In this document: positions 52,743 through 63,996 of the stretch, piece by piece
How the letters are laid out: each line of letters starts with the position of its first letter
How positions within the stretch are numbered: position 1 is the first letter of the stretch
Origin: Planosporangium mesophilum
Lineage (GTDB): Bacteria; Actinomycetota; Actinomycetes; Mycobacteriales; Micromonosporaceae
Assembly: GCF_016863255.1 (NCBI RefSeq)
Contig: NZ_BOON01000016.1
Coordinates: 1-64,000, forward strand
Reading direction: 5' to 3'
DNA: 64,000 nucleotides
The notes under the pieces: model-generated
Databases searched by the model: none
What the model was told of the DNA's origin: nothing
The model's input: the letters and a program-made list of their open reading frames with translations, nothing else
Translations under genes and position numbers: made by a program

Positions 52743-52914
52743 CGCGACGGCGAGCGCACCCGTGACGCAATCGACAACCTGCTCGGTGCCATCATTGCCC
52801 AGACGGTCTGACGACGGCCGGAGCGGTGCGCGAGGTGCGTTTCCCCCGTTGGAACACCTGCTCCGGCGCAACCGGGCGTTTTCGTGGACGTCCGGCGACA
52901 GCTGGAGGTGTGCC

Positions 52915-53136
52915 ATGAACTGGCTCGAACGCGACGCGGCGTCCGGGTGGCACCGAGGTACAGAGCGTGGCGTGGTGCCCCTCGCCACCAAGAACCCGGC
53001 CATCCCGCCGCCCGATCCCGACCAGCCCAGCGGCCCGGGCCCGACCGACCCCGAAGGGCCCACCGACCCCAAACCCACCGACCCGACCGACCCGACCGGT
53101 CCGGACGAGCCACCCGCCCTCGGGGTGGCCGCGTGA
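52915..53136 (+). CDS. 73-residue Pro-rich small protein coupled to bioF
   Basis: ATG 52915 has a clear GGAGGT upstream. The frame runs to a TGA that shares GTGA with the bioF start. The N-half (MNWLERDAASGWHRGTERG) is amphipathic-looking with two Trp. The C-half is Pro/Asp/Thr-rich with PTDP repeated. No signal peptide or known family is seen. The ribosome-binding site and the coupling argue for real translation. It may serve as a leader setting bioF expression or act as a small partner. The 172 bases upstream hold no other gene. Confidence 0.6.
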   Translation: MNWLERDAASGWHRGTERGVVPLATKNPAIPPPDPDQPSGPGPTDPEGPTDPKPTDPTDPTGPDEPPALGVAA

Positions 53137-54335
53137 CGCTCGCTCCGGAGGGCGCACCGCTCACCGTCCACGAGCCGATCGGGGAGGGCGGCTGGCTCGA
53201 CAGCCTCACCGAGCAGGCCGCCCGGCGTGCGGCGGCCGGGCTGCGCCGCGACCTGCGCCCGCACGGGCCCGTTGAGGACGTGGTCGACCTCGCCGGCAAC
53301 GACTACCTGGGGCTCGCCCGCCACCCCGAGGTCGTCGAGGCGGCGGTGGCCGGCTTGCGCGCGTACGGGCTCGGCGCCACCGGCTCCCGGCTGGTACGCG
53401 GCTCGACCGACGCCCACGACGCCCTGGAGACGGGGCTGGCGGAGCTGCTGGGCACCGGGACGGCGCTGGTGTACTCCTCCGGCTACCTGGCCAACCTCGG
53501 CGCGGTCAGGGCGCTCGCCGGCCCCGGTACCCTCGTGGTCTCCGACGCGTACAACCACGCCTCCCTGGTCGACGGCTGCCGGATGGCCAAGGGCGGCCGC
53601 GACGGAGTCGAGGTCGTGATCAGCCCGCACGCCGACGCGGGCGCGGTACGCAACATCCTGGCCGCGTACCCCGGCCGGCCGGCGCTGGTCGTCACCGAGT
53701 CGGTGTTCTCCGTCGACGGTGACCTCGCGCCGCTGCGGGCGCTGCACGCCGCCTGCCGCGAGTACGGCGCGCTGCTGCTCGTCGACGACGCGCACGGGGT
53801 GGGCGTACTCGGCCCGCACGGCGCGGGCGGGGTGGCGGCGGCGGGGCTGGCCGGCGAGCCGGACGTGGTCGTGACCGCCACCCTGTCCAAGGCGTTCGGC
53901 GCGGCCGGTGGCGTGGTCGCCGGCCCGGCCGAGCTGCGCCGGCACCTGGTCGACACCGGCCGTACCTTCATCTACGACACGGCGCTGCCGCCGGCGGTCG
54001 CCGCCGGTGCCCGCGCAGCCCTGGGCGTCCTGCGCGCCGGGGACGGGCTGCGCGCCGAGCTGGCCGACCGGGCCCGGTACGCGACCGCCCGGCTGCGCGC
54101 CGCCGGCCTGGAGGTACCTGCGCCGTCCGGCGGCGTCCTCGCGGTCACCGCCCCGGACGCGGAGCGGGCCCTCGGGTGGGCGCAGGCCTGCCGCGACCGA
54201 GGCGTCGCGGTCGGCTGCTTCCGCCCGCCGTCGACGCCGGACGGCCGTTCGCGTCTGCGGCTTACGATCAATGTCGGAGTGGGACGTACCGATTTCGAAC
54301 GCGCCGTCGACGTCATCATTCAGGTGCGTCCATGA
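53133..54335 (+). CDS. bioF: 8-amino-7-oxononanoate synthase BioF
   Basis: PLP alpha-oxoamine synthase condensing pimeloyl thioester with alanine. The 400 residues have DLAGNDYLGLARHPEVV, GATGSRLVRGSTDAHDALE, SDAYNHASLVDG, LLVDDAHGVGVLG, and the PLP lysine in TATLSKAFGAAGG (about residue 253). RLRLTINVG lies near the end. The GTG at 53133 overlaps the upstream small ORF. Product assignment is supported by bioD downstream and bioB nearby. Confidence 0.94.
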   Translation: MTLAPEGAPLTVHEPIGEGGWLDSLTEQAARRAAAGLRRDLRPHGPVEDVVDLAGNDYLGLARHPEVVEAAVAGLRAYGLGATGSRLVRGSTDAHDALETGLAELLGTGTALVYSSGYLANLGAVRALAGPGTLVVSDAYNHASLVDGCRMAKGGRDGVEVVISPHADAGAVRNILAAYPGRPALVVTESVFSVDGDLAPLRALHAACREYGALLLVDDAHGVGVLGPHGAGGVAAAGLAGEPDVVVTATLSKAFGAAGGVVAGPAELRRHLVDTGRTFIYDTALPPAVAAGARAALGVLRAGDGLRAELADRARYATARLRAAGLEVPAPSGGVLAVTAPDAERALGWAQACRDRGVAVGCFRPPSTPDGRSRLRLTINVGVGRTDFERAVDVIIQVRP

Positions 54336-54360
54336 CGCACAGCATCCTTGAGGAGCGACC

Positions 54361-55077
54361 ATGACGCCGTTGCGTGGACCGGTCATCGTGACGGGTACCG
54401 ACACCGGGGTCGGTAAGACGATCGCGACCGCTGCGCTGGCCGCCGCGGCCACCGAGGCGGGGCTGCGGGTCGCCGTCGTCAAGCCGGGCCAGACGGGCGT
54501 CGCGACCGGCGAGGAGAGCGACGCCGACGCCGTGACCCGACTGGCCGCTCCGGCCACGGTACGCACGCTCGCCTCGTACCCGGATCCCCTCGCCCCGCTG
54601 ACCGCGGCTCGGGTCGCCGGCCTCGCGCCGCTGGTCCTGGCCGACGTGCTCGCGGGCGTGGAGGAGCTCGCGGCAGCGCACGAGCTGGTCCTCGTCGAGG
54701 GGGCCGGCGGCGTACTCGTGTCCATGGGCGACGGCGGGTGGACCATCGCCGACCTGGCGATCGCGCTCGGCGCCCCGGCGGTCGTGGTCGCCCGCGCCGG
54801 GCTCGGCACGCTCAACCACACCGCGCTGACCCTCGAGGCGCTCGACCGGCGGGCGGTGCCGGCGCGCGTGGTGATCGGCGCCTGGCCGCAGGTGCCGGAC
54901 CTGGTGCACCGGACGAACCTGTCCGACCTGACCGGCGAGCTGGGTGGGGTGGTACCCGACGGCGCGGGCGGCTGGCAGCCGGCGGAGTTCCGACGGCGGG
55001 CCGCCGACTGGCTGGCCCCGGAACTGCACGGCACGTTCGACGCCGAGAAGTTCCGGAGCCAGCAGGCGTCCCGTTAG
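54361..55077 (+). CDS. bioD: dethiobiotin synthetase BioD
   Basis: ATP-dependent carboxylase closing the ureido ring. The 238 residues have P-loop VTGTDTGVGKTIATAAL at residues 10-26, VVKPGQTGV with the conserved Lys, and VEGAGGVLVSM. GAGGAG precedes ATG 54361, 25 bases after bioF. Its TAG overlaps the stop codon of the convergent glyA. No bioA is present in the window. Confidence 0.95.
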   Translation: MTPLRGPVIVTGTDTGVGKTIATAALAAAATEAGLRVAVVKPGQTGVATGEESDADAVTRLAAPATVRTLASYPDPLAPLTAARVAGLAPLVLADVLAGVEELAAAHELVLVEGAGGVLVSMGDGGWTIADLAIALGAPAVVVARAGLGTLNHTALTLEALDRRAVPARVVIGAWPQVPDLVHRTNLSDLTGELGGVVPDGAGGWQPAEFRRRAADWLAPELHGTFDAEKFRSQQASR

Positions 55078-56348
55078 CGGGGCGTCGGCTCCCAGCCCGG
55101 CATCGGGTACCCGGCCAGCAGCTCCCGTACCTGGGCGGCGATCGTGTCCAGGGTGGACTCGTCGGCCTTGGCGGCCGCGTCGACCGCCGCCGAGATCCAG
55201 GCCGCGATCTGCGGCATCTGCTCCTCGGTCAGCCCCCGGGTGGTCAGCGCCGGGGTACCGAGCCGCAGCCCGGACGGGTCGAACGGCTTGCGGGTGTCGT
55301 ACGGCACCGTGTTGTAGTTGGTCTCGATCCCGGCGCGGTCCAGCGCCTTGGCCACCGGCTTGCCGCCGATACCCTTGCTGGTCAGGTCGACCAGGATCAG
55401 GTGGTTGTCGGTACCGCCGGTGACCAGGTCGAAGCCCTGCTCGGTCAGCGCGGCCGCGAGGGCTTTGGCGTTGGCGACGATCTGGTGGGCGTACCGGCGG
55501 AACGAGTCCTGGGACGCCTCCCGCAGCGCCACCGCGATCCCGGCGGTGGTGTGGTTGTGCGGGCCGCCCTGCAGGCCGGGGAAGACCGCCTTGTCGATCG
55601 CCTTCGCGTACTCGGCGGTGGTCATGATCATGGCGCCACGCGGGCCGCGCAGGGTCTTGTGCGTGGTGGTCGTGATCACGTCGGCGTACCCGACCGGCGA
55701 CGGGTGCGCGCCGCCGGCGATCAGGCCGGCGATGTGCGCGATGTCGGCGACCAGGACCGCGCCGATCTCGCGCGCGATCTCCGCGAACGCGGGGAAGTCG
55801 ATCGTGCGGGGGATCGCGGTACCACCGGCGAAGATGATCTTCGGGCGCTCCCGGCGGGCCAGGTCGCGAACCTGGTCCAGGTCGACCCGGCCGTCGGAGC
55901 GACGCACCTCGTAGCGCACCGGGCGGAACCAGGTACCGGTGGCTGAGACGCTCCAGCCGTGGGTGAGGTGGCCGCCCATCGGCAGCGCCATGCCCATGAC
56001 CGGGTCGCCGGGCTGGGCGAACGCCAGGTAGACGGCGAGGTTCGCCGGCGAGCCGGAGTACGGCTGGACGTTGGCGTGGTCGACGCCGAACAGGGCCTTC
56101 GCGCGGTCGATCGCCAACTGCTCGATCTGGTCGATGAACTGCTGGCCCTCGTAGTAGCGCCGGCCCGGATATCCCTCGGAGTACTTGTTGGTCAGGACCG
56201 AGCCGGTCGCCTCCAGGACGGCGGGGGAGACGTAGTTCTCCGAGGCGATCATCCGCAGCACGTCGTGCTGACGCTGGGCCTCGCTCTCGACCAGAGCGGC
56301 CAGCTCCGGGTCGGCGGTGGTCAGGTGCGGGATCGGCGGTACGTGCAT
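55074..56348 (-). CDS. glyA: serine hydroxymethyltransferase GlyA
   Basis: PLP enzyme moving a one-carbon unit from serine to tetrahydrofolate. The 424 residues include IASENYVSPAVLEATGSVLTNKYSEGYPGRRYY near the start. VADIAHIAGLIAGG and VITTTTHKTLRGPRGAMI hold the PLP lysine near residue 231. GGTDNHLILVDL comes later. The ATG at 56348 has CCGGAGGA upstream. A ZTP riboswitch in its leader ties expression to folate/purine status. The 3' end shares its stop with bioD. Confidence 0.97.
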   Translation of the reverse strand: MHVPPIPHLTTADPELAALVESEAQRQHDVLRMIASENYVSPAVLEATGSVLTNKYSEGYPGRRYYEGQQFIDQIEQLAIDRAKALFGVDHANVQPYSGSPANLAVYLAFAQPGDPVMGMALPMGGHLTHGWSVSATGTWFRPVRYEVRRSDGRVDLDQVRDLARRERPKIIFAGGTAIPRTIDFPAFAEIAREIGAVLVADIAHIAGLIAGGAHPSPVGYADVITTTTHKTLRGPRGAMIMTTAEYAKAIDKAVFPGLQGGPHNHTTAGIAVALREASQDSFRRYAHQIVANAKALAAALTEQGFDLVTGGTDNHLILVDLTSKGIGGKPVAKALDRAGIETNYNTVPYDTRKPFDPSGLRLGTPALTTRGLTEEQMPQIAAWISAAVDAAAKADESTLDTIAAQVRELLAGYPMPGWEPTPR

Positions 56349-56351
56349 GAG

Positions 56352-56470
56352 CGTCCTCCGGGTACGGTCGGCCGGCGACCGGACACCCAGGCGCGCGGTG
56401 CCGCGATCATGGTCGCTCCCCGGTGGTTGTTTCCACCTCTGTCATGCGCCAGTCACGAGTACCCGTCCGA
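56352..56470 (-). promoter_or_regulatory. ZTP (pfl) riboswitch upstream of glyA
   Basis: On the minus strand all three conserved blocks of the pfl/ZTP aptamer appear in order: CGTGACTGGCG (56457-56447), a GGTGG-AAACAA-CCACC hairpin running into CCGGGGAGCG (about 56437-56414), and CGCCTGGGT (56392-56384). P1 is CGGAC (56469-56465) with GTCCG (56383-56379 region). Just downstream, TCCGG of P1 could instead pair with CCGGA of the glyA Shine-Dalgarno (56361-56357). ZTP binding, which stabilises P1, would then free the ribosome site. glyA is a classic target of this riboswitch; the switching mechanism is my inference. Confidence 0.92.
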
Positions 56471-56506
56471 GTGTAGTGCCGAGGAGCGATCAGGGCGCGA
56501 CGCACG

Positions 56507-56512
56507 TACGCT
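56507..56512 (+). promoter_or_regulatory. -10 box (TACGCT) of leaderless capA-like gene
   Basis: TACGCT lies six bases before the GTG at 56519. No Shine-Dalgarno is present. Confidence 0.45.
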
Positions 56513-56518
56513 GACGCG

Positions 56519-57586
56519 GTGAGAACCCGGGCGTTGATCGCGCTGGTCACCGTGCTGGTGGCCGTCGCCGGCTGTTCATCCGGCGCGCCGGTGGCGATTT
56601 GGGCCGAGCCGGCCGTCGGTGGGGCGGCCGGGTCCGCGTCGGGTTCGGCGCCCCCGGCCGATATCACACTGGCCTTCGCCGGTGACGTGCACTTCGAGGG
56701 CCGTACCGCCGACCTGCTCAGCCGCCCGGCGGACGCCTTCGGCCCGATAGCGTCGGTCTTGCAGAGCGCGGACGTGGCCATGGTCAACCTGGAGACCGCC
56801 GTCACCGAGCGGGGCACGCCCGAACCGAAGCAGTTCCACTTCCGGGCGCCGGCTTCCGCTTTCGACGCCGTCAAGGCAGCCGGGGTGGACGTGGTCACGA
56901 TCGCCAACAACCACTCGCTCGACTACGGGCAGGTGGGGCTCACCGACACCCTGGACAATGCGCGCAAGGCCGCTGTGCCGGCCATCGGGGCGGGCCGCAA
57001 CGCCGCCGAGGCGTACGCACCATGGGTGACGACCGTGCGGGGCACTCGCGTCGGCTTCGTGGCGGTCAGCCAGGTTCACGAGCTGGAGTCCACCTGGGCG
57101 GCTCGGGACAATCGAGCCGGTGTGGCGATGGCCGCCGACGGCGCTCGTGCCGCCGCCGCCGTACGCGCGGCGCGGTCGATGGCCGACGTGGTCGTGGTGT
57201 ACGCGCACTGGGGGCAGGAGGGCAACGACTGCCCGAGCGCCGAGATGAAGACGTTCGCTTCCCGGATGGCGGCTGCGGGCGCGGACGTGGTGCTCGGCAC
57301 CCATGCGCACCTGCTGCTCGGCGACGGCTGGATCGACAAGACCTATGTCGCGTACGGCCTCGGAAACTTCCTGTGGTGGCGCGACGACGCGTTCAGCAAC
57401 GACACCGGCGTACTGCGCGTGACCCTTCGCGATCGCAAGGTCGCACGCTCGGAGCTGGTACCCGCGCTGATCTCCCGCGGCACCGGGCAGCCGCTGCCGG
57501 CCTCCGGCGACGAGGCCGACAGGATCGCGAAAGAGTTCGCCGGTCTCCGCTCGTGTACGGGGCTGGAGGACGCGCCCCGCGGCTAG
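56519..57586 (+). CDS. CapA-family lipoprotein (metallophosphoesterase fold)
   Basis: The 355 residues begin with a lipoprotein signal peptide and lipobox, LVAVAGCSSG (Cys at residue 19), so the protein is membrane-anchored outside the cell after Lgt/LspA processing. The CapA (poly-gamma-glutamate capsule) domain shows ITLAFAGDVHFEG, VNLETAVTERG, VVTIANNHSLDYG, VVVYAHWGQEGND and VVLGTHAHLLLGDG, with the expected His/Asp/Asn ligands. The substrate here is unknown; capsule genes are absent around it. A decayed second copy follows directly. Confidence 0.9.
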   Translation: MRTRALIALVTVLVAVAGCSSGAPVAIWAEPAVGGAAGSASGSAPPADITLAFAGDVHFEGRTADLLSRPADAFGPIASVLQSADVAMVNLETAVTERGTPEPKQFHFRAPASAFDAVKAAGVDVVTIANNHSLDYGQVGLTDTLDNARKAAVPAIGAGRNAAEAYAPWVTTVRGTRVGFVAVSQVHELESTWAARDNRAGVAMAADGARAAAAVRAARSMADVVVVYAHWGQEGNDCPSAEMKTFASRMAAAGADVVLGTHAHLLLGDGWIDKTYVAYGLGNFLWWRDDAFSNDTGVLRVTLRDRKVARSELVPALISRGTGQPLPASGDEADRIAKEFAGLRSCTGLEDAPRG

Positions 57587-57639
57587 CCTGTCGCCGTGGT
57601 CCCATGCCGCGTGATCGGAATGGCCTGGGTGGTACTCGC

Positions 57640-58273
57640 CTGGCAGGGTGCGGCGGGCAGCCGATCTCCCACTCTCCGCCGGCCTGCCGGCCGTGGGGCG
57701 AGCCGCGCCGCCGAGGCGTACGCCCGCGCTGTACGTGTCGGTGAAGGGCGTCAAAATCGCGATCCTGGCGTTCGGTCAGGTGCACGAGCTGGAGTACGCC
57801 TGGGCGGCTCGTGACGATCGCCCCGGTGTCGCGACGGCCCTGGGCCTGACGCGGTCAGTATCCGCGGTCCGTGCGGCCGCCGACCTTGTGGTCGTGTTCA
57901 ACCACCGGGGCCGGGAGGGCAACTCGTGCCCCATCAGCGAGCAGAAGACCTTCGCGGCCAAGCTCGCGGCCGCCGGCGGCGACGTGATCCTCGGCTCGCA
58001 CGCCCACACGCTGCAGGGCGACGGCTGGATGGGCGGGACGTACGTGGCCTACGGGCTGGCCAACTTCCTCTGGTACGGCGACTCCTTCAGTACCGACACC
58101 GGGGTCCTGAAAATGACCATGCGGGCCGCACGGTGGTCAAAAATGAGCTCGTACCCGCCGTGGTCTCTGTCACAGGACAGCCGATCCCACTGACCGGCGA
58201 GGCCGCTTCCAAGGTCAACAAGCGCTTCGCCGGACTGCGCCAGTGCGCCGGCCTGTCCGCCCGACCGTCGTGA
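57640..58273 (+). pseudogene. truncated, frameshifted second capA-like copy
   Basis: From about 57732 the sequence encodes VKIAILAFGQVHELEYAWAARDDRPGVATA, FNHRGREGNSCPISEQKTFAAKLAAAGGDVILGSHAHTLQGDGWMGGTYVAYG and on. It parallels the second half of the upstream CapA protein residue by residue. The signal peptide and the first catalytic half are missing. Near 58122 a one-base deletion shifts the frame: the expected VVKNELVPAVVSVTGQP continues in the next frame to the stop at 58273. A tandem duplication followed by loss explains it. Confidence 0.85.
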
Positions 58274-58403: not shown

Positions 58404-58476
58404 GCGGACGTAGCGCAGTTGGTAGCGCATCACCTTGCCAAGGTGAGGGTCGCGGGTTCGAGTCCCGTCGTCCGCT
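58404..58476 (+). tRNA. tRNA-Gly (GCC anticodon)
   Basis: A 73-base cloverleaf. The acceptor GCGGACG pairs with CGTCCGC, the D-arm is GCGCAGTTGGTAGCGC, the anticodon loop CTTGCCAAG has GCC, and the T-arm is CGGGTTCGAGTCCCG. CCA is not encoded. Confidence 0.97.
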
Positions 58477-58510
58477 CGGAGGCCGCCAGATAATCTCGAG
58501 GCGACACCTC

Positions 58511-58581
58511 GGTGGAGTGGCCGAGAGGCGAGGCAACGGCCTGCAAAGCCGTGTACACGGGTTCAAATCCCGTCTCCACCT
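58511..58581 (+). tRNA. tRNA-Cys (GCA anticodon)
   Basis: A 71-base cloverleaf with acceptor GGTGGAG/CTCCACC and discriminator T (typical of Cys). The anticodon is GCA within CCTGCAAAGC, and the T-arm is ACGGGTTCAAATCCCGT. CCA is not encoded. Second in the Gly-Cys-Val order common in actinobacteria. Confidence 0.97.
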
Positions 58582-58617
58582 CGAGAGAAGTGCACGGGGG
58601 CACCACGGAAAAACCCG

Positions 58618-58692
58618 GGGCGATTGGCGCAGTGGGAGCGCGCTTCCTTGACACGGAAGAGGTCACTGGTTCAAACCCAGTATCGCCCACCA
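58618..58692 (+). tRNA. tRNA-Val (GAC anticodon)
   Basis: Acceptor GGGCGAT/ATCGCCC, anticodon arm CTTCCTTGACACGGAAG with GAC, and T-arm ACTGGTTCAAACCCAGT. The 3' CCA (58690-58692) is encoded, unlike in the two preceding tRNAs. Last tRNA before island-like DNA. Confidence 0.97.
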
Positions 58693-58707
58693 GAGAAACA
58701 GCAGGTC

Positions 58708-58743
58708 AAAGGCTCGTTACCGAAGATCCGGTAACGAGCCTTT
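58708..58743 (+). terminator. rho-independent terminator of the tRNA operon
   Basis: AAAGGCTCGTTACC (58708-58721) and GGTAACGAGCCTTT (58730-58743) form a perfect 14-bp stem with an eight-base loop. TTTCGGTTT follows. Confidence 0.9.
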
Positions 58744-58928
58744 CGGTTTATGCCCATTACATTGGGAGCAAAATGGGAGCACATGATCGTCTACCTCTCT
58801 GAGGTGCCGATGGGCGCGCGTCGGGCGCGTGGGACGGGCCCGGCACGGGCCAGCGGTTAGCGGTCGGTCGGGTGAACGGCGGCGGGGCGGCACCGCGACG
58901 GTGGCGCCCCGCAGGCCGGTGCCAGGGG
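58744..58928. other. gap between tRNA terminator and integrase remnant
   Basis: About 185 bases without a gene. It contains the AT-rich near-direct repeat TTGGGAGCAAAATGGGAGCA at 58761-58780, unlike the surrounding DNA, which may mark an attachment region next to the tRNA-Val gene. Nothing else is recognised. Confidence 0.4.
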
Positions 58929-59529
58929 TTACGCGGCGTGCAGGTGCCGCACCGGGGCTGCCGGTGCGGGCTGGGTCGATAGCCAACGGTCCTGGAGCGC
59001 CTCGGTGATGCGCTGGCGCATGGCGGGCGTCACATGGCTGTAGATGCCGCGGACGCCGGGCAGCCGGTGGCCCAGCCGCTTGGCTTGGGCGACTTCGGGG
59101 ATGCCGTCTTCGATCAGCCAGGTTTTGTGCGTGTGTCGGAGGTCGTGGAGGTGCATGCCTTCGATGACAGGGCCGGTGTGGGCGCGCGCATTGCCGTTGA
59201 CGACGGGTCCCCAGACGCGGCGGGACATGCTGGAGCGGCGTAGGAAGGCGCCGCGGGCGCCGCAGAAGACGATGTCGTGGTCGTGGCTGTCGAGTACCTC
59301 CCGCAGTAAGGCGGTCAGGAACGGTGGGAGGTGGATGTCGCGGACGGAGTTCGCGGTTTTGGGTGGGCCGAGGTAGAGGTGGCCTTGGACCTCGTGCAGG
59401 GCGCCGACCTCGGGGTGCACCTGGATGAGCCCGTCGCCGAGGTGGGTGTTGGCGCGGGCCAGGCCGGTGAGTTCGCCCCAGCGCATGCCGGTGTAGGCGG
59501 CGGTGAAGTGGTGCTGCAGATGTCTGCAT
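58929..59529 (-). pseudogene. tyrosine recombinase (phage-type integrase), C-terminal remnant
   Basis: The frame encodes the whole catalytic domain of a tyrosine integrase (about 186 residues from MRWGELTGL). Catalytic Arg is in GMRWGEL, Lys in PPKTANSVRDI, HxxR in HLHDLRHTH, His in AKRLGHRLPG and the nucleophile Tyr in RGIYSHVTP. It opens just after an in-frame TAA near 59537. No core-binding N-terminal domain is found upstream, although HHFTAAYTG, normally part of the domain, is still present before the Met. It is a truncated gene; catalysis without the N-domain is unlikely. Confidence 0.85.
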
Positions 59530-60186: not shown

Positions 60187-63100
60187 CTACTCCGCCGAGT
60201 ACAGTTCGGGCATTGTCCGGATGCTTCCCTCGCGGGCCTGCCGCTTGAGCGCGGACTGGTAACGGACGCGGACGTCGTGAGGCATCCGGTGTTCCAACTC
60301 GTGCAGCCAGTCGGGCAGAGGTCGGATCCGGTCGACGCATGCGGTGATCGCGATGCTGGCCATGCTTGCGTCCCAGGCGAGGAGCCCGACGACGAGTCGG
60401 TGAGAAGCAGGGCTGGGTGCGCGGGTCACTGCGGTATTGATGGCTGTGCTCCACTCGCGGGCGCCGCGTCGACGCCAGGTGGTCGCGGCGGGCTGCAGAT
60501 GGCGGAGTCGCTGCCCGACGTCGATGAGCAACTCGATGGCGGCGACAGGGTCGCTGCCGGAGAGGTGGTCGCCGAGTTCGGCGAGTTGCGCGTTGAGGGT
60601 TGTGAGGACACTGCGGCCGTACTCGTTGTCGGCGGTGTAGCCGGCGTCCCAGACCAGACTCATGGCCTGGTCAGCCAGGTGGCGGCGCTGCGCTGGTAGG
60701 TCGGCGGCCTGCAGGTGTCGGTCGCAGATGGCGACCAGGATTCGCCGGGCAAGCGCCTCACGTGTCACCGCCGCCTGGTCTCGCTTGCTGTCGGCCTGTC
60801 CAGCCGGCTTGTCCGCTCGCCTGGATCTGATCTCCTGTCCGGTGGAGGAGTAGCGTTCGCATATTGTGGTCAGCCTCGTCAGGTCGGCCGTGCGCCAGTA
60901 CGGTGAGCCGAGCATCGCGACGGCGAGGTCGAGAACGGCTCGGCTGTCGGCTCCGTCGGCTCGTGCCGTCAGTCGTGTCGCCAACGCAGCCGGGGTGGGC
61001 GCCTCGTCGAGGTTGTGGCGCAGCAACTGCTTCCAAAGCAGGTAACCGGACCAGCTGTCAGCGACACGGTTGGAGTTGACCAGCGTGCGTCGCAGCCGAC
61101 GCAGCCGACGCAGCCGGTCGTGGCCGCTGTGGAGCACCGTTACCGCGTGGTCTGGCATGTTCTGCAAGGCGTTGCACAGGTCGGACGCTTCGCCGGTGGC
61201 CTCGGTGAGCGTGATCAGGGCGTCCAACGCAATCGGCGAGCCGTCCACGGCGGCGTACTGCACCTGATCAACGGTCGCGGTCCTGGACGCAGTGTCTAGC
61301 GTCGTGCCGTCCGTCCCGGCACACCATGCCTCGAGCGCGGCCGAGGCCTCGGGATGGCCAGCGACGGCAGCGGGGACCATCAGCGGGCGCAGACCGTCAG
61401 GTTGGAACCACGCCTCGTGCCAAATCTTGTCGGGTAGCGCCGCGAGGAGTTGCGGCCCGCGTACCTTCGCCCCGTGCAGGGCGCGTACCAGCAGGGTGGC
61501 ACTGTACCCGCTGGTGCGGTCGCCGGCTCCCAGTTCGTGACGGGCGATTGCGCGGAGGGCAACCGTCAACGGGGCGTTGTCGGCTTGCCAGAACGCGTCG
61601 CCCAGAACGACGCACAGGTCCTCGACCCTGTCCGGTTGGCTCTCCTGGCTCAGGGCGGTGAGAAGGAACTGCACCGAGTCCGCGTCCAGTCGGGCCGCCA
61701 TCCGTGTCAGCGCGCGCAGTTCGGCGCGGCGACCCATCTTGGACCAGTCGCCGCGCCCGAGGGTTGATTTGATCTGCCCGATGAGTTCGCCCACGTCGAC
61801 GTAGGCGACGGCTTCTGCCCGCAACCGGACGAACTCTTGTTCCAGGACGGCTGCGTTACGGGTGGGGTGGGTGGCGTGCACATGGGCGGTGACCTCGTCG
61901 ACGACACGGTGATCGAGGGCTGTCTCGCGGGCGATGGCGTTGAGTAGGCCGAGAACCTCGGCCATGCCGCCGACGTCGGAATGGTTCACGAAGCGTCGCC
62001 AGAAATGCATTGCCTGCTCGACACACCAGCGCGGATCGGCATATCGCAGGGCGGACAGTAGTCGTAGGTAGAGGCTGTCGTGTTGACGCCACTCGGCCGG
62101 ATCACGCTTGAGGAGCCAGCAGATGCAGTCGTGGTCGACGACGAAGTGGTGGGCCGCATCACGGTGGGTGCTGCTGAGCCGGGTCAACGTGTCGAGCACC
62201 CGCAGGGCCAAATCCCGGGTGGCTCTGGCCGGTTCCGCACGTGAGGAGGTGCCGCTTGCGCGGTCCCACAGGACCGCCAGGCTGGGTTCGACCGCGGCGA
62301 ACGTGTCGTGGTACGCAGATGGCACTAGGTGCAGGTATCCCTTCGCGGCGTCCATGTCGACGCTGACCAGCCGGCTGGACGCGAGCGATCTGAGGTCCGG
62401 GCTCGGGGAGCGGGTGCGGGCGTATGTACGCAGCGCGAACATCTGCACCATGGGTCGATCGTCGCGCAGCCACCCGGACAGCAGTTCCTCGGCCAGCGGC
62501 ACCGGAACGGCCGGATGACGCCCCGCCAGCAGCAGCACCTGCGCGGCCACTTCGCTGTAGAAGAAGTCCGCCGGATCTTCGAGCACCCGATTGGCGAGCA
62601 GGCGCATCGCTGACTCCCCACGGCGGGCAGTCGCGCGGGCGGCGGTGTGCTCCATGAACGTCTGGTGGAAGAACCGTAGGCGGCCCGCGTGGCCGGGCGA
62701 ACTGAGCACATGCCGTGCACGCAGCGCGTCGGCTGCGGTAGCAGCGGCGCGCCGGCTCGCGCCGGTGAGGCGTTGGATCATCTCCTGAACATGCAGCCGG
62801 TCGGCCTCGATGATTCCCCCGACGAGCAGTCCGAACCCCACCGCCTCCGCCTCCGCGGTCAAGTCGACGCCGGACCGCCGGTGGCCGGGCGACTCGTCTG
62901 TCTCGATCCGGCGCGCCCAGAACTCCTCGTACAACCCGATGCTGTCGATGTCGAGCCGCGGCATCTGACCGGCTGGGGCGTACAACTCGAACAGCAGCCG
63001 CAGCGCCAGCGGACTGCGGGAGATTTCGACGATCGGCAGGCCGCGCACGTTCGCCTCGGTGATGATCCGGGCGGCCTCGGCCGCTTGGTGCGGCGGATAG

Positions 63101-63996
63101 AAGGCACGCGCGTACGCGGCGATCGCGCTGGCCCGTTCCTCGTTTTCGTAGCCGCGCAGATGGATGCCGTGGACAGTGCGGCTGTCGGTCGCTCCCGCAG
63201 CCGTCTCGTAGTCGATCTTCAGGGAGGCGATCTCCAAGGGCCGAGACGTCACGAGCAACGCGATCCGCTGCTCGAACGCGACGGCAAGCAGGTCATTGAC
63301 GAGACGGAGAAAGTTCACGTCGGTGTGCAGCAGGTCGAGGGTGTCGACCAGCAACGCCAGGCGGACGTCCCGGCGGGCGGCCTCGTGTGCCGCCCGTCCG
63401 ATCATTTCCGGTGTGACGACCGCCGCGCCGGCCGCTGCTGCGGGATGTCCCGGTGGCGCCAGCAGCGCGGAAGCCGGCACCAGGATGGGCGTCATTCCAC
63501 GTTCAATCAACCGGTTGTGTAGCTGCCACATCAGCGCGGTCTTGCCATGCCCCGCCTCGCCGACAACCGCCTGTACCGAGGGCACCGTCAGCCGCTTCAG
63601 GATGAGGTCTTCCACCGTCCGGGTGATGTAAAGGCCTCCGCTGTATGTGAGCGGCCTGGCGCCGATCCCGACGGTGACCAGGTCGGATTCGGCCACGGCG
63701 GCACGGCTGACGCGCTGCAGTTGCGTCAGGATCGATCCCGCTGCCGGACCTGGGCGAGTGCTGCCGCGTGGGGCAGCCTGCGGCAGCGCCGCGTCGATTG
63801 CCTCGTCGACGAACTCGGGGCAGCGGCAGCCCACGATCTGCCGCAGCGCCTTGACATGGTCCCTGTTGGAGGGTGGTCGACCGCCGGTCATCCATGCGCT
63901 CAGCGACTGTGAGCTTCCGCCCCCCGTCGCCTGTCGAAGCTTCCCGGCGAGAACCTTCAGGCTCCAAGTGCTGGCATGATCGCGGTAGTGGCGCAC
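60187..63996 (-). CDS. large HTH-NACHT-type (STAND) NTPase with helical C-terminus, 5' end may be cut
   Basis: About 1269 residues are visible, and the frame is still open at the window edge, so the true start may lie outside. Residues 10-55 look like an XRE-like HTH (LAGKLRQ...SQSLSAWMTGGRPPSN). Walker A GEAGHGKT lies at 146-153 and Walker B LALLVDTLDLL at 213-223. Sensor-1 LLVTSRP is at 247-253, and RFFHQTFMEHTAARA at 441-455 matches the F-H-x-F-x-E-x-x-A element of NACHT winged-helix regions. The remaining 800 residues are Leu/Ala/Arg-rich helices resembling HEAT/TPR-type repeats. No nuclease or TIR effector is seen. STAND ATPases act as signalling switches and several are antiphage sensors; that role here is inference from architecture and island context. 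Confidence 0.8.
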   Translation of the reverse strand: MRHYRDHASTWSLKVLAGKLRQATGGGSSQSLSAWMTGGRPPSNRDHVKALRQIVGCRCPEFVDEAIDAALPQAAPRGSTRPGPAAGSILTQLQRVSRAAVAESDLVTVGIGARPLTYSGGLYITRTVEDLILKRLTVPSVQAVVGEAGHGKTALMWQLHNRLIERGMTPILVPASALLAPPGHPAAAAGAAVVTPEMIGRAAHEAARRDVRLALLVDTLDLLHTDVNFLRLVNDLLAVAFEQRIALLVTSRPLEIASLKIDYETAAGATDSRTVHGIHLRGYENEERASAIAAYARAFYPPHQAAEAARIITEANVRGLPIVEISRSPLALRLLFELYAPAGQMPRLDIDSIGLYEEFWARRIETDESPGHRRSGVDLTAEAEAVGFGLLVGGIIEADRLHVQEMIQRLTGASRRAAATAADALRARHVLSSPGHAGRLRFFHQTFMEHTAARATARRGESAMRLLANRVLEDPADFFYSEVAAQVLLLAGRHPAVPVPLAEELLSGWLRDDRPMVQMFALRTYARTRSPSPDLRSLASSRLVSVDMDAAKGYLHLVPSAYHDTFAAVEPSLAVLWDRASGTSSRAEPARATRDLALRVLDTLTRLSSTHRDAAHHFVVDHDCICWLLKRDPAEWRQHDSLYLRLLSALRYADPRWCVEQAMHFWRRFVNHSDVGGMAEVLGLLNAIARETALDHRVVDEVTAHVHATHPTRNAAVLEQEFVRLRAEAVAYVDVGELIGQIKSTLGRGDWSKMGRRAELRALTRMAARLDADSVQFLLTALSQESQPDRVEDLCVVLGDAFWQADNAPLTVALRAIARHELGAGDRTSGYSATLLVRALHGAKVRGPQLLAALPDKIWHEAWFQPDGLRPLMVPAAVAGHPEASAALEAWCAGTDGTTLDTASRTATVDQVQYAAVDGSPIALDALITLTEATGEASDLCNALQNMPDHAVTVLHSGHDRLRRLRRLRRTLVNSNRVADSWSGYLLWKQLLRHNLDEAPTPAALATRLTARADGADSRAVLDLAVAMLGSPYWRTADLTRLTTICERYSSTGQEIRSRRADKPAGQADSKRDQAAVTREALARRILVAICDRHLQAADLPAQRRHLADQAMSLVWDAGYTADNEYGRSVLTTLNAQLAELGDHLSGSDPVAAIELLIDVGQRLRHLQPAATTWRRRGAREWSTAINTAVTRAPSPASHRLVVGLLAWDASMASIAITACVDRIRPLPDWLHELEHRMPHDVRVRYQSALKRQAREGSIRTMPELYSAE

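Follow-up and report, generated by a model that had tools for sequence, protein, structure and literature searches.

The window, which is the complete 64,000-nt stretch of Planosporangium mesophilum DNA analysed here, carries on its minus strand an open reading frame of 424 aa (56348-55074) that encodes a serine hydroxymethyltransferase (SHMT; PF00464, 518.4 bits), the product of glyA. A Shine-Dalgarno sequence, GGAGGA (56354-56359), precedes the ATG at 56348; its extended form, CGGAGGA, is predicted to pair with the anti-Shine-Dalgarno at -9.5 kcal/mol. The closest named orthologues are those of Planosporangium thailandense (91%) and P. flavigriseum (90%), and a quick tree of glyA placed these two together with the window (SH-aLRT 99). 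Convergent with glyA, the plus strand bears two genes at 52884-55077, placed by Pfam in aminotransferase class I/II and P-loop AAA_26 and judged by eye to be bioF and bioD; the last of them overlaps the end of glyA by 4 bases. On the other side, at 56519-58193 (plus strand), lies a complete PGA_cap gene (355 aa), followed by a second frame whose similarity to PGA_cap is confined to the C-terminal region (profile positions 106-252 of 255). Further on, genes for tRNA-Gly, tRNA-Cys and tRNA-Val (58404-59486) stand beside a short phage-integrase frame on the opposite strand (58929-59486), a stretch that is possibly the remnant of an integrated element. The minus-strand frame at 60187-63996 specifies a protein of 1269 aa; NACHT matches it below threshold (21 bits, cut-off 26.7), and PADLOC gave no match at E ≤ 0.001.

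A preliminary description made from the letters of this DNA had identified a ZTP riboswitch of glyA at this point and proposed a covariance-model scan. When the whole window was scanned with cmscan, RF01750 (ZMP-ZTP) matched positions 56466-56378 of the minus strand with 49.7 bits (gathering score 39; E 4.2e-05) over its full length (model positions 1-86 of 86), the model ending 29 nt before the glyA ATG. The aptamer ahead of glyA is real and belongs to RF01750, and the identification was borne out: the score lies above the cut-off and an SHMT gene (PF00464), which is of the purine/one-carbon type, follows directly on the 3′ side. The element is an ordinary member of the known ZMP/ZTP riboswitch class. 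The pfl motif, its association with glyA and the ON logic expected of it were described in 2010, glyA being one of the five genes most often associated with the class (PMC2864571); the identity of the ligand was established afterwards, according to PMC7266159, which cites Kim et al. 2015. The glyA-leader copy is the single RF01750 match in its own genome at E ≤ 0.001; two more SHMT-like loci (49% and 45-47% identity) are present, and the core pattern found no aptamer in the loci around them (L174-L176). Among 150 sampled Micromonosporaceae genomes, this one included, 144 have an RF01750 match (142 above the cut-off), as have all four genomes of the genus, again counting this one. Other aptamer copies precede other genes, which from their translations were judged by eye to be another SHMT type, purH, folD and a cyclodeaminase-like gene.

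For comparison, a core pattern was applied to 176 locus records, yielding 153 aptamers; 91 distinct leaders stood before a window-like glyA (N-terminal identity ≥58% over ≥30 aa). Removing three with a core longer than 80 nt left 88 references, and the 58 nearest to the window by N-terminal identity, minus L052 and L091, gave the 56 of alignment A1, the other 30 being left out. The rows of A1 were not thinned for redundancy; pairs were counted on the 54 distinct rows. Since the retrieval pattern fixes ACTGGCG, part of the 3′ side of P2 and CG[CT]CTGGG, only P1, the outer bases of P3 and the region upstream escape its influence, and the invariance of core and pseudoknot letters in A1, which adds nothing, was dropped as evidence. 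The named pairs were formed in 91.5% of cells, against 89.1% in shuffled alignments, and doubly changed cells numbered 37, against 21.5; none of 500 shuffles was as high on the first count or reached 37 on the second. With the partners slid, 37-48% of cells were paired, with up to 34 doubly changed cells (at +2). Seven pairs showed double change, a number reached by 35 of the 500 shuffles, and further pair types were not above shuffles (323 of 500).

As judged from the alignment, this covariation signal resides in P3. In the window, P3 is formed by GGCACC (56397-56402) and GGUGUC (56382-56387); in A1 the helix is paired in 95.7% of cells and shows double changes, its outermost pair being G-C in 21, U-A in 10 and C-G in 9 of the 54 rows, and the C that follows GGUGU extends it by one pair. 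Pairing survives a change of letters between the window (GGCACC/GGUGUC) and L027 (GACACC/GGUGUC). The P2 hairpin, GGUGG...CCACC (56422-56437), is found by the RF01750 alignment, A1 and RNAalifold. The pseudoknot letters are also present in the window, according to the RF01750 alignment: GGCG at 56447-56450, with its partner named from the known class, and CGCC, in L3, at 56390-56393. P1 has inner bases UCGU (56455-56458) and GCGA (56413-56416), the latter within the 3′ strand GCGACCAUGA (56416-56407). This helix is kept only partly in A1, where the outer pairs tried were formed in 47% of cells, and RNAalifold run on A1 recovered P2 and P3 together with a pair of short helices that are not P1. 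The preliminary description had all conserved aptamer blocks in place, which holds for the core, P2, P3 and the pseudoknot letters; in P1, 4 of the 10 model positions are marked as non-standard pairs in the cmscan alignment. An upstream ATG inside the aptamer (56410), considered as the start of a leader peptide, was set aside because only the window and L032 have it among the four leaders of the genus.

The aptamer lies close behind a putative promoter element. A TANNNT box ends 11-20 nt 5′ of ACTGGCG in all 91 leaders (mean 3.8 and maximum 11 over 500 shuffles). In the window this -10-like box is TACACT (56475-56470, minus strand); it is known from the comparison of leaders, a scan for the sigma-70 consensus having returned no promoter at the window leader. 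By the usual -10 spacing the RNA presumably starts near 56463, inside P1.

The switch had been proposed to work through GTCCGG, taken as the 3′ strand of P1, which would pair with CCGGA of the ribosome site. The RF01750 alignment assigns this strand differently: GUCCGG (56384-56379) begins with the GU that ends the P3 3′ strand GGUGU (56387-56383), its first C extends P3 in A1, and CGG lies outside. UCCGG (56383-56379) can indeed form five pairs with CCGGA (56361-56357), but a longer helix is chosen when the window leader is folded without constraint. In that free fold CUGGGUG (56390-56384) pairs with UACCCGG (56364-56358) at all seven positions, two of them G-U, and the helix stacks on a linker hairpin, CGGUCG-CCGGC-CGACCG (56365-56381), giving 13 pairs with a two-base bulge. 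The CUGGGUG:UACCCGG helix disrupts P3 and extends into the Shine-Dalgarno, 47% of the stretch from there to the start codon being paired into the P3 zone in the modelled fold. The linker hairpin was rejected as a conserved element, its arms and loop differing across the four genus members and its stability over 89 leaders falling within that of shuffles.

These features suggest how the leader might work, and we think it probable that it is a ZMP/ZTP riboswitch in which UACCCGG invades P3 and holds the Shine-Dalgarno in the absence of ligand, which the ligand then frees. The folded aptamer would consist of P1, P2, P3 and the GGCG/CGCC pseudoknot, an architecture backed by the RF01750 score and, in the case of P3, by covariation as well. 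With no ligand bound, the linker hairpin would form and its 3′ strand, UACCCGG, would invade L3 and the 3′ strand of P3 (CUGGGUG), breaking the aptamer, holding the start of the Shine-Dalgarno and presumably keeping glyA translation low. To judge from the known class, a shortage of 10-formyl-tetrahydrofolate would raise ZMP/ZTP, stabilise P3 and the pseudoknot and block the invasion; the ribosome site would thus be freed and GlyA would supply one-carbon units. The least certain step is the exact competing helix. The same riboswitch might operate in the same direction with the Shine-Dalgarno held either by UCCGG:CCGGA or by GGGUGUCC (56388-56381) paired with GGACGCUC (56356-56349), just before the AUG. 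Both pairings are largely kept by the letters of the four genus members: in the window, L032, L027 and L006, respectively, the former retains 5, 5, 5 and 3 of 5 pairs and the latter, with the 8 nt before the AUG, 8, 8, 7 and 7 of 8, the corresponding figures for CUGGGUG with UACCCGG-type strands being 7, 7, 7 and 6 of 7 (2-4 of them G-U), all as letter counts without a chance control. The sister leader L032 adopts the GGGUGUCC helix when folded freely. It also counts against invasion by UACCCGG that only two of the four genus members route the Shine-Dalgarno into the P3 zone in their free folds. Against the two other helices, the free fold of the window favours CUGGGUG:UACCCGG, and UCCGG:CCGGA is shorter than both of its competitors. 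On these letters and folds any of the three candidate helices could possibly hide the Shine-Dalgarno, although we regard a helix other than CUGGGUG:UACCCGG as unlikely.

Invasion of P3 by UACCCGG was compared with chance by shuffling linkers. The helix that would hide the Shine-Dalgarno is present in the modelled free fold of the window but is not above shuffles for this sequence: the leader hairpin had p 0.37 among 200 linker shuffles, and 13 of 90 foreign Shine-Dalgarno zones formed a duplex with the P3 zone at least as strong as that of its own Shine-Dalgarno zone. Forcing P3 and leaving the pseudoknot letters unpaired lowered the cost of opening the Shine-Dalgarno and start codon from 10.7 to 8.9 kcal/mol, a drop that 40% of 15 shuffled linkers matched. 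Even in this forced state, the stretch from the Shine-Dalgarno to the start was still 55% paired (0.44 with itself or with the start of the coding sequence). The wiring through P1 is therefore unsupported, since the strand named for it belongs to P3, a longer helix is preferred and the single-sequence tests fall within shuffles. The negative result is not strong either, because the fold tests omit ligand, pseudoknot energy and co-transcriptional order.

Pooled over 89 leaders (the linkers of the remaining 2 of the 91 being too short for shuffling), the release of the Shine-Dalgarno was 1.05, against 0.50 in shuffles, with 51 leaders above their own shuffle mean (Wilcoxon p 0.034, uncorrected for relatedness). 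Twelve of the 89 beat all 15 of their shuffles, eight of these being among the 23 leaders of the Actinomadura group. Hairpin stability over the 89 leaders was not raised (mean z -0.23, p 0.25; 9 of 89 at p ≤ 0.05). The idea that the P3 and Shine-Dalgarno zones are co-adapted was rejected, the cognate duplexes of the 91 leaders (-11.26) being no stronger than foreign ones (-11.63) and no better than those formed with the Shine-Dalgarno zones of the 15 orthologues that lack an aptamer. Within the set, a translational platform is most clearly indicated, by prediction, in the Frankia glyA leaders (L065, L083 and L111), in which the strand after P3 faces the Shine-Dalgarno and all three hairpins have p ≤ 0.005 against linker shuffles. 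In the release test L065 and L111 beat all their shuffles, but L083 did not and showed no release (difference -0.3); with P3 forced, the Shine-Dalgarno of L065 was still paired by other means. Translational control is likely in this glyA family, and we infer the form that it takes in the window.

The preliminary description had also proposed a translational ON switch. This part is plausible, because no terminator-like site was found around the leader, the Shine-Dalgarno (GGAGGA) is strong and nearly half of the stretch from it down to the start codon pairs into the P3 zone in the modelled free fold; the P1-based wiring attached to it lacks support. The aptamer might instead control transcription, through a Rho-dependent or unusual terminator, rather than ribosome access. 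Many pfl RNAs are overlapped by predicted terminators, as described in PMC2864571, and the free fold of the window is a strong hairpin. Against this, no terminator-like site was found in 56300-56560 and a run of at least four T occurs in 1 of the 91 leaders only; we consider transcriptional control improbable. With no terminator-like site found there, an ON switch acting on translation is the reading that fits best, even though for this sequence it is no stronger than with shuffled linkers.

The aptamer is not present in every orthologue. Fifteen of 80 named orthologues lack the core by the pattern, and RF01750 matched none of these with the E limit relaxed to 5. In four of them (L066, L068, L085 and L110, from two Thermocrispum, one Actinophytocola MAG and Kibdelosporangium; start at about 1501) TANNNT lies 6-8 nt before the start codon, and from this spacing these four glyA genes look leaderless. 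The box lies 29-38 nt before the start in five of the 15 and at other distances in two, and is not found within 80 nt in four; none of 1000 shuffles reached the count for 6-8 nt or that for 29-38 nt, these ranges having been chosen after seeing the data. In L035, L042 and L051 (Micromonospora sp. HM5-17 and two Plantactinospora), TANNNT and a Shine-Dalgarno, CCAGGAGGACG, stand upstream of 1501 with no aptamer between them. Mapped onto the glyA tree, the aptamer switches between present and absent at least seven times, four of these changes being forced by starred branches. Such counts do not distinguish gains from losses, but since the orthologues without an aptamer are nested within groups that bear one, loss is suggested. 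The leader L091 comes from a MAG labelled Acidobacteria, and its glyA and aptamer fall among Micromonosporaceae relatives, through either a binning error or transfer.

The repeated changes imply that the aptamer is dispensable in some lineages and, like the negative platform tests of the window sequence, would suit an aptamer that is a relic or binds its ligand without controlling glyA, a reading that we consider very improbable given that the aptamer occurs in all four genus genomes and that P3 pairing is kept through the change seen in L027. The arrangement of box and aptamer also allows the riboswitch of this actinobacterial glyA family to be viewed as a removable cassette placed directly behind the promoter, whose repeated clean loss would leave that promoter driving either a short leader with a Shine-Dalgarno or a leaderless mRNA. 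Because the -10 box is so close, the RNA would start inside P1 and few P1 pairs would be left. We regard the case for and against this cassette as evenly balanced.

Compared with known systems, the window shares with the glyA-associated members of RF01750, as the sources describe them, the core, P2, P3, the pseudoknot letters, the gene and the expected ON logic; it differs from the class in its weak P1 (4 of 10 model pairs non-standard) and in that no terminator-like site was found in the leader region. The P3 invasion modelled for the window resembles a published mechanism, that of the pfl ZTP riboswitch of Clostridium beijerinckii, in which, as PMC10085676 describes it, an invading strand displaces first P3 and afterwards the pseudoknot. 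In both, an alternative helix competes for the 3′ strand of P3 and the pseudoknot strand; that of C. beijerinckii is described as forming an intrinsic terminator, whereas the candidate invader of the window, to judge from its fold, would run into the Shine-Dalgarno. A further comparable system is the ZTP riboswitch of Pectobacterium carotovorum, a bacterium of another phylum: trimethoprim is reported to raise a translational lacZ fusion, but not that of a binding mutant (PMC10117056). A study of 2026 describes a covariation model of whole ZTP riboswitches that starts from terminator-bearing sequences (PMC13273304).

The leader described here contributes a ZTP switch, likely acting on translation, for glyA of the Micromonosporaceae, and it directs the search for the competing strand to P3, not P1. 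The leader set, with its natural absences of the aptamer, could serve for studying how riboswitch control is lost; if the cassette reading is true, one gene would have moved between riboswitch-controlled, Shine-Dalgarno-led and leaderless translation.
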